Part shown: piece after piece, positions 17,404-19,363 of the stretch | Position numbering within the stretch: position 1 is the first letter of the stretch | Layout of the letters: each line of letters begins with the position of its first letter | Assembly: GCA_030523555.1 (NCBI GenBank) | Contig: JAUNIH010000007.1 | Span: 1-42,897, forward strand | Length of the DNA stretch: 42,897 bases | Origin: Erysipelotrichaceae bacterium | Lineage (GTDB): Bacteria > Bacillota_I > Bacilli_A > Erysipelotrichales > Erysipelotrichaceae | Reading direction: 5' to 3' | Position numbers and translations under genes: made by a program | Notes under the pieces: generated by a model | What the model was told of the DNA's origin: nothing | What the model saw: the letters and a program-made list of their open reading frames with translations, nothing else | The model's database searches: none

Positions 17404-17427
17404 AAAAATCCCTCACGGGATTTTTTA
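17404..17427. terminator. Bidirectional terminator between yebC and tmcAL
   Basis: A 9-bp stem (17404-17412 with 17417-17425) with a TCAC loop has T-runs on both strands, so it can end both convergent genes. The tmcAL stop codon lies at 17425-17427, at the foot of the stem. Confidence 0.88.
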
Positions 17428-18516
17428 TTTTATGATAGGACCTTTAAGTTCTTTCTTCATATATTCCTTCTGATTCTTCATCAGGGATGAATAGACAAGA
17501 CTGCTCTTATATTCAATATCCTTATACGCTTCAGGAATATTCTTGAACTGGGTAACAAATTTTGTATCAGAATCTTTTAATGATTTAAGAAGATTTCGTC
17601 CTTTTTCATTAAAACCGAGAACTCTTACATAGTCACATTCTGGAAGATTTTTTACATCTTCCTTTTTTATCTGATTTATCATATGCATCAGTATTCTCTG
17701 AATTCTTGAACGGGTATATCTTCTTGATACACTCTTATCCAGAAATTCATCATAGGTATCATACTTTATCGCATTCTCTTTTAACATTCCTTCAATACCT
17801 TCATCCATCATAAAGATATCCGAGAGATCTTTTCTTGAAGAAGCAAACAGAATATTACGGATATATGGATACAGCATCTCATTAAACAGTGGTTCTTCTA
17901 TGGTGATTGGTGTAGCCTTTGAGATATCTTTGTTTTCTTTTACAGCTTTGCGGATTGCCGTAGCGGAAGAGATAATATCGAGGTTTTCATCGTGATAGTC
18001 ATTGGTTCTTTGAATTGATACCGGTTTTATATCTGTATCTTTAATGGCTTTAAGATATGTAACAGCCAGGATATCATTCGGGTATAAGCAGCTGCTTAAT
18101 AGACCATATGCCTTAGGATATGAATTGCCGTCATGCATAAGCTCTTTTAGTCTGGTGACATCTACTTCAAGTTCGGCATATTTTTTAAGTTCATCGATAT
18201 TGTTTGTTTCTGAACCAAAGACAATCGTATCAACTAAACACTTATTCAGGATGTCTATCGCATTCTTACCAAAGACATAGGCATTCTGAAGGGTAAAGAT
18301 ATACGGAAGTTCCAAGACAAGATCGACACCGTTATTTAACGCGGCTTCGGTTTTCTGAAACTTATCGATGATAGAGATATCTCCACGCTGATTGTAGTTA
18401 CCTGAACATACCGCTACCAAAACATCAGGATCAGTAAGCTCTCTTGCCTTGTCGATATGATATTTATGTCCGTTGTGGAAGGGGTTATATTCGACAACTA
18501 TACCTGTTACTTTCAT
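17425..18516 (-). CDS. tmcAL: tRNA(Met) cytidine acetate ligase TmcAL
   Basis: The 363-residue nucleotidyltransferase-like enzyme (YlbM) forms N4-acetylcytidine at the wobble base of elongator tRNA-Met using acetate and ATP. The N terminus has the GIVVEYNPFHNGH signature (4-16) containing the HxGH nucleotide-binding motif; a CSGNYNQRGD segment and the SATAIR element follow. It is somewhat shorter than the Bacillus protein, mainly at the C terminus. It is divergent from yceD, and its -10 TATAAT (18528-18523) ends 6 nt before the ATG, so the message appears to be leaderless. Confidence 0.9.
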   Translation of the reverse strand: MKVTGIVVEYNPFHNGHKYHIDKARELTDPDVLVAVCSGNYNQRGDISIIDKFQKTEAALNNGVDLVLELPYIFTLQNAYVFGKNAIDILNKCLVDTIVFGSETNNIDELKKYAELEVDVTRLKELMHDGNSYPKAYGLLSSCLYPNDILAVTYLKAIKDTDIKPVSIQRTNDYHDENLDIISSATAIRKAVKENKDISKATPITIEEPLFNEMLYPYIRNILFASSRKDLSDIFMMDEGIEGMLKENAIKYDTYDEFLDKSVSRRYTRSRIQRILMHMINQIKKEDVKNLPECDYVRVLGFNEKGRNLLKSLKDSDTKFVTQFKNIPEAYKDIEYKSSLVYSSLMKNQKEYMKKELKGPIIK

Positions 18517-18538
18517 AAATAAATTATATAATACATGT
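18517..18538. promoter_or_regulatory. Palindromic divergent promoter tmcAL / yceD
   Basis: The 22-bp gap holds a perfect 10-bp palindrome, ATTATATAAT (18523-18532). It supplies TATAAT on both strands (18527-18532 plus, 18528-18523 minus), and each copy ends exactly 6 nt before an ATG. There is no room for a leader or a Shine-Dalgarno sequence on either side, so both messages should begin at or next to the start codon. Confidence 0.65.
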
Positions 18539-19033
18539 ATGAAGATAACACTGAGAGACCTGATGTCAATGTCAGATGAAAAAATCTATCCCGTAGATGA
18601 AAAGGATATCGTTATTGAAGACAATATCTTTATAAGAGGAATAAAAGATATAAAAGGGGATATCAGTTTCTATTATGATTCAATGGATGAACTTAGAATC
18701 AACTATCAGCTTTCCGGTACTATGATCTGTCCGTGTGCAGTGAGTATGGAAGATGTTGAAGTAGAATATGATATTTCGGAAGATGAAAAGGTCGTTCAGG
18801 AAATAAAGGAAGATGGTTTCTATTTCAAAGAGACGATGGAAGTAAGAGACCTGGCAGCTATGATAGTTATACCTGAAGCTCCGATTATGGTTGTCAAAAA
18901 TAAAAAAATAGAGTATTCTAGAGGGGATGGTTGGTCTTTTGTCAGTGAAAAAGACTATGAATTATCCAAAAAAGATGAAATAGATCCCAGACTGGCAAAA
19001 CTCATGGAATACAAGGTTGAGGAGGATGATTAA
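18539..19033 (+). CDS. yceD: YceD/DUF177 family protein
   Basis: The 164-residue acidic protein of the DUF177 (YceD/YlbN) family has a CPC pair near residue 63, where the family has conserved cysteines. It is almost always found directly upstream of rpmF, as here (3 nt gap), and is associated with ribosome or 23S rRNA biogenesis. ATG 18539 is used because it lies 6 nt after the -10; upstream in-frame starts would lie within or beyond the promoter. The start has no Shine-Dalgarno, in contrast with GGAGG before rpmF. Confidence 0.85.
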   Translation: MKITLRDLMSMSDEKIYPVDEKDIVIEDNIFIRGIKDIKGDISFYYDSMDELRINYQLSGTMICPCAVSMEDVEVEYDISEDEKVVQEIKEDGFYFKETMEVRDLAAMIVIPEAPIMVVKNKKIEYSRGDGWSFVSEKDYELSKKDEIDPRLAKLMEYKVEEDD

Positions 19034-19036
19034 AAA

Positions 19037-19183
19037 ATGGCAGTTCAGCAGAGAAGAAATTCTAAGACACGTAAAGCAAAAAGAAGAACTCATTATAAAT
19101 TGATTGCACCTACTATGGTTAAGTGTACATGTGGCGAATTCAAATTAGCTCATCATGTTTGCCCTAACTGTGGTGCTAAATAA
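19037..19183 (+). CDS. rpmF: 50S ribosomal protein L32
   Basis: The 48-residue protein starts [17 protein letters not shown] and has a C-terminal zinc ribbon with Cys at 30, 32, 42 and 45. Sequence, size and place after yceD identify L32 of the large ribosomal subunit. A GGAGG ribosome-binding site overlaps the end of yceD. The Cys-containing form is retained, rather than the zinc-free paralogue some bacteria use under zinc limitation. Confidence 0.97.
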
Positions 19184-19207: not shown

Positions 19208-19237
19208 ATACGGCATGAAAATGCCGTATTTTTTTTA
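19208..19237 (+). terminator. First terminator after rpmF
   Basis: A 9-bp stem (19208-19216 with 19221-19229) with a GAAA tetraloop is followed by at least eight T residues. Confidence 0.95.
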
Positions 19238-19282: not shown

Positions 19283-19360
19283 TTTACTTAAAAATGTTTA
19301 CATTTATGCTTAAAAAAGTGATAATGGTGGTAGGAAGTGGAATAAAGTGGAGGAAAGTGG
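19283..19360 (+). promoter_or_regulatory. mraZ promoter and MraZ operator repeats
   Basis: TTTACT (19283-19288) and TATGCT (19305-19310) form a plausible promoter. Immediately downstream GTGG occurs at 19327, 19337, 19347 and 19357, an exact 10-bp period, preceded by a degenerate copy (AAAGTG, 19315-19320). The last two copies read AAAGTGG, matching the AAAGTG-type repeats bound by MraZ in Mollicutes. The ribosome-binding site GGAGG (19349-19353) is embedded in the array. Confidence 0.82.
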
Positions 19361-19363
19361 TAG

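Follow-up and report, generated by a model that had tools for sequence, protein, structure and literature searches.

A palindromic -10 element as putative shared promoter of the divergent genes tmcAL and yceD-rpmF in Erysipelotrichaceae

The genes around the start of tmcAL were examined in a window of 42,897 nucleotides, the whole stretch of DNA that was analysed. The reverse strand encodes tmcAL, a HIGH nucleotidyltransferase of 363 amino acids (17425–18516; Pfam HIGH_NTase1, E 1e-103). The divergent unit on the forward strand begins with a yceD-like gene of 164 amino acids (18539–19033), whose match to Pfam YceD (E 3e-4) falls below the curated cut-off and which has orthologues in 29 of 30 loci of the genus. 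This is followed on the forward strand by a reading frame of 48 amino acids (19037–19183), missed by an ORF list with a 50 amino acid minimum; its translation carries a C-x-C...C-x-x-C pattern and we take it to be rpmF, the gene for ribosomal protein L32. A terminator-like hairpin read from the sequence, CGGCATGAAAATGCCG followed by a run of T (19211–19236, forward strand), ends the yceD-rpmF unit. Repeats of the GTGG type lie directly before mraZ at 19327–19362 and resemble the MraZ-binding repeats of division clusters. The start codons of tmcAL and yceD are well placed, since the alignments with their orthologues begin at the same residues.

The intergenic gap between the two divergent units is 22 bp long (18517–18538) and reads AAATAA-ATTATATAAT-ACATGT. 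Its centre is a 10 bp palindrome (18523–18532) that gives a consensus TATAAT on each strand, at 18527–18532 for yceD-rpmF on the forward strand and at 18523–18528 for tmcAL on the reverse strand, the two hexamers overlapping by 2 bp. Each hexamer is separated by 6 nt from an ATG, that of yceD at 18539 and that of tmcAL at 18516, so that the gap sequence confirms the layout given in the preliminary description; the A residues of the two start codons are 23 bp apart. The 6 nt discriminators (ACATGT at 18533–18538 towards yceD; 18517–18522, AAATAA on the forward strand, towards tmcAL) are constant in length across species. The description of the gap as mirror-perfect holds for the 10 bp core, but not for these flanks, whose sole common features are an A following each -10 and a T preceding each start codon, a tendency seen among 24 orthologous gaps (T in 19 of 24 for yceD and 20 of 24 for tmcAL). 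A further ATG, at 18535, lies in another frame. No Shine-Dalgarno sequence was found in the 22 bp gap for either gene, and comparison of the tmcAL/yceD gaps across species gave no convincing conserved -35 hexamer on either side. The nearest candidates are CTGTTA for yceD, located within tmcAL (18504–18509, forward strand), which is unconvincing across species, and GTGTTA for tmcAL, located within yceD (18546–18551, reverse strand), which is not conserved in the relatives; each matches 3 of 6 positions with a 17 bp spacer.

This arrangement is very probably a shared -10 promoter that works in both directions, with a start spacing of 23 bp and two leaderless transcripts, at which the symmetric -10 would be the sole strong element for polymerase carrying the housekeeping sigma factor. 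RNA polymerase would engage ATTATATAAT in either orientation, melting the same A/T-rich bases, and on each strand transcription would begin at the seventh nucleotide past the final T of the -10. The predicted starts are A18539 for yceD-rpmF and the A paired with T18516 for tmcAL; because the start nucleotide would be the first base of the start codon on both sides, both mRNAs are predicted to be leaderless. We infer transcription itself, its exact start sites, leaderless translation and the mutual exclusion of polymerases from the sequence, its fixed spacing and conservation, the recurrence at other gene pairs and the genome-wide peak of TATAAT-N6-start sites. The poor -35 elements on both sides and the weak family match of yceD were counted against the promoter reading.

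Single genes in the genome from which the window was taken have the same spacing, which speaks for leaderless starts. A -10 about 6–7 nt before the start codon, the position used to recognise leaderless genes, is present on both sides of the gap, and the pattern TATAAT-N6-ATG occurs 105 times in the genome, compared to 22 for the control. In sampled stretches, ORFs of at least 70 amino acids show a strong preference, over other distances, for a start 6 nt after a TATAAT, with 14 such starts in 243 kb of this genome and 12 in 200 kb of genome G015. A pyrimidine before the start nucleotide is expected of a transcription start, as a preference of the initiator, and at 23 of 26 TATAAT-N6-start sites the base directly before the start codon is T or C. 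Genes that are leaderless in one direction keep TATAAT-N6-ATG, usually without the ATTA half, and the palindrome is therefore read as two overlapping -10 elements. Other genera of the order also have an excess of TATAAT-N6-start sites, so that leaderless starts extend to more of the order than the shared -10 form does.

The tmcAL/yceD locus was read in 30 species of the genus, a group of uncultured Erysipelotrichaceae from the ruminant gut. The form CAT/CAC-N6-ATTATATAAT-N6-ATG/GTG, with start codons 23 bp apart (6-10-6), was present at 24 of the 30 loci, a count that is not made of independent cases as the species are all related. The 10 bp are invariant among these 24 species by definition of the class, and the informative figure is the 24 of 30 that fall into it. 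At 6-10-6 loci the identity of TmcAL to the window protein is 57–72% and the N6 flanks vary. Beyond the 24, the 6-10-6 form is also present in L204 (genome G016), and a 6/7 version in G020. Both deep branches of the genus contain the form and about six changes of state are placed on the tree, which makes an ancestral origin followed by losses the most likely course; a -10 that fired in both directions may first have given a divergent start, onto which the start codon of the neighbouring gene later came, and selection would have held the geometry since the common ancestor of the genus. Among the exceptions, the -10 elements have moved apart in L014, L020 and L030, L013 has a slight shift, and the neighbourhood is lost in L023 and L024. 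Most of these loci keep a -10 located 6 nt from the tmcAL start, the N6 spacing being retained by separated -10 elements in L020, L023, L024 and L030.

In the nearest outside genera with the same gene order the two starts are 64–75 bp apart, and in the sister family the distance exceeds 100 bp whenever tmcAL and yceD are divergent, and tmcAL is often preceded by a Shine-Dalgarno sequence of the GAGGTGA type. The motif used left the tmcAL gap unreadable in a few members of the family. Orthologues with separate promoters and leaders, named at the outset as evidence that would speak against the arrangement, were encountered in the sister family but not within the genus, where separated -10 elements mostly still lie about 6 nt from a start. 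Two further features of the gaps were observed. The G+C fraction of the discriminator, taken over the window gap and 24 orthologous gaps, is higher towards yceD-rpmF (0.42) than towards tmcAL (0.19). GTG replaces ATG as the start codon of yceD at 7 and of tmcAL at 10 of the 24 loci, a switch that would change the initiating nucleotide.

The genome-wide count of palindromic -10 elements between divergent starts, proposed as a check in the preliminary description, was made from pattern searches and sampled stretches: the exact 6-10-6 pattern was found at 54 sites in 30 of 36 genomes of the genus, compared to 0 for the reversed-pattern control. The arrangement at tmcAL/yceD is not due to chance. 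One occurrence falls in the window's own genome, and about 226 other genomes of the order gave 2 matches. The 54 sites comprise 25 at tmcAL/yceD, 1 at a partial tmcAL copy and 28 elsewhere; 19 of the latter were read directly (17 complete pairs, 1 cut by a contig end and 1 one-sided) and the rest were assigned by near-identical sequence. Eight further gene pairs are represented, namely ung/folC, HD/TraB, murE/PfkB, GH25/GNAT, GH25/SNase, ispD/msrA, M19 dipeptidase/small protein and truB/PP-loop, giving nine different pairs within the genus. When unequal spacing was allowed, 6/6 was the commonest combination (22 of the 75 sites listed), followed by 6/7 (11), the latter owing in part to ung/folC with its ATGATG start. 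A relaxed -10 pattern gained mostly noise. The partial copy is a second tmcAL start in G030 (G030:C54:11957-11984), which carries its own symmetric promoter.

Two intact TATAAT hexamers can overlap in two ways. An overlap of two bases gives ATTATATAAT and starts 23 bp apart, and an overlap of four gives the 8 bp palindrome ATTATAAT and starts 21 bp apart. The 21 bp pattern occurs 20 times, compared to 4 for the control; of the 17 matches that were read, about 8–10 separate two ORFs, and several (L207, L214, L218–L222) are not gene pairs. The 21 bp class is only partly real. It includes the second shared promoter of the window's own genome, CAT-N6-ATTATAAT-N6-ATG between ung and folC (G000:C95:11010-11035; L206:1011-1036). 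The ung/folC pair has the 21 bp form in this genome and in G032, the 23 bp form in others and the 6/7 form in others again, and truB/PP-loop has the 21 bp form in G018 and the 23 bp form in G019. Pairs with two separate consensus -10 elements, each 6 nt from an ATG, were also found in the 36 genomes (34, compared to 0 for the control). The two elements are 0–7 bp apart in only 1 of these 34 pairs (binomial 0.0005, or about 0.003 with repeated loci merged), and for this reason the overlapping form looks like a class of its own rather than the end of a continuum, albeit from small counts in which loci repeat among relatives. An 18 bp shared form (TATNATA) was also considered and set aside: it is weaker (16 sites, compared to 3 for the control), and at two of its sites (G018:C18 and G025:C13) the match is merely part of ATTATATAAT.

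A stricter pattern, TTTCAT-N6-ATTATATAAT-N6-ATGAA, was searched over 84,980 species genomes and returned 27 stretches, of which 21 lie between two ORFs: 8 in Erysipelotrichaceae, 9 in Gastranaerophilales, 3 in Elusimicrobia and 1 in Saccharibacteria. The Gastranaerophilales sites (L032, L036, L037, L038, L052, L053, L055, L056 and L058) always separate the same pair of divergent, similar genes of about 331 amino acids, judged by eye from their cysteine motifs to be radical-SAM-like. In Elusimicrobia the layout lies between a histidine-phosphatase-like gene and a gene of 992 amino acids (L033 and L054), or between two other genes (L051). The 6-10-6 layout arose more than once. The compact promoter type looks real, since it is kept across most species of the genus, reused at about eight other gene pairs and present in unrelated phyla. 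The original proposal of a shared symmetric -10 with two leaderless starts accordingly finds strong comparative support in its conservation, its recurrence, the genome-wide TATAAT-N6-ATG peak and the pyrimidine before the start codon.

Bidirectional promoters with a pseudo-symmetric -10 that polymerase uses in two orientations have been described in Escherichia coli (Warman et al., 2021, cited in PMC10268837; 2023, PMC10268837; 2026, PMC12825309), where the common distances between starts are 18, 10 and 23 bp (PMC12825309). The tmcAL/yceD promoter resembles these in its overlapping -10 elements on opposite strands and in its predicted start distance, which at 23 bp lies within 7–25 bp and among the common values. 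It differs in that the -10 matches the full consensus on both strands, both predicted starts fall on start codons and the arrangement is conserved at orthologous pairs. Leaderless mRNAs are mentioned in neither the 2023 nor the 2026 paper, and no published account of leaderless divergent pairs was found among the papers searched. For leaderless 'TA-led' bacterial genes, Zheng et al. (2011, PMC3160421) give a -10 box placed some 12 bp before the start codon and no Shine-Dalgarno sequence; tmcAL and yceD share both. In Firmicutes the available part of that paper reports such genes for Lactobacillales and Mycoplasma, two clades that do not include Erysipelotrichaceae. The paper treats them gene by gene, the word 'divergent' being absent, while tmcAL and yceD form a divergent pair. 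With 22 bp separating the two start codons, the gap is putatively close to the smallest possible promoter for two genes.

Bidirectional promoters are abundant in bacteria, and the point at issue is whether selection maintains their symmetry or the -10 sequence produces it by accident. The genus provides a natural series in which the same gene pairs have shared 23 bp, shared 21 bp or separated -10 elements, with no leaders or strong -35 elements to confuse the comparison, and this makes the question directly testable. The layout may be a mere compact end-point of genome shrinkage in a lineage prone to leaderless starts, devoid of regulatory meaning, the overlap being the shortest way to keep two consensus boxes. 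We give this explanation slightly better than even chances: many genera of the order have leaderless starts, the genomes are small (1–3.4 Mb), the gene pairs are functionally mixed and other phyla provide convergent cases, but equally small genomes in other genera of the family almost lack the layout, and the near absence of -10 elements separated by 0–7 bp is unlike a continuum of shrinkage.

A second explanation is that the shared -10 is kept because mutual exclusion of polymerases couples tmcAL to yceD-rpmF, as a built-in balance or by lowering noise. The conserved and recurrent geometry, the alternation of ung/folC between 23 bp, 21 bp and 6/7 forms that retain overlapping -10 elements, and the near absence of closely spaced pairs are consistent with this, as are the competition and lower noise that accompany a strong direction in E. 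coli bidirectional promoters (Warman et al., 2026, PMC12825309). At five such promoters, however, basal activity was too low for polymerase competition (same study), the eight other gene pairs have no obvious common function and the shared form was lost several times within the genus. Coupling by exclusion, and with it the built-in balance of the preliminary description, is considered doubtful. It is likewise rather improbable that overlapping symmetric -10 elements with leaderless starts form a maintained class with two geometries (ATTATATAAT, 23 bp; ATTATAAT, 21 bp), between which conserved orthologous pairs shift without losing the overlap, that arose separately in each of Erysipelotrichaceae, Gastranaerophilales and Elusimicrobia and was selected for polymerase exclusion.

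Transcription of one or both genes from further upstream, inside the other gene, with an incidental palindrome in an A/T-rich gap, is very unlikely given the 54 matches against 0 in the control, the 10 bp unchanged in 24 species and a 22 bp gap that offers no Shine-Dalgarno sequence to a led mRNA. The reading of the palindrome as an operator for a dimeric regulator, to which its perfection and conservation would be suited, was rejected as most improbable, as the half-site is an exact TATAAT placed where a -10 is required, genes lacking a divergent partner keep TATAAT-N6-ATG and usually not the ATTA half, and one and the same gene pair can have the different centre distance of ATTATAAT, a change that a dimeric operator would scarcely tolerate.
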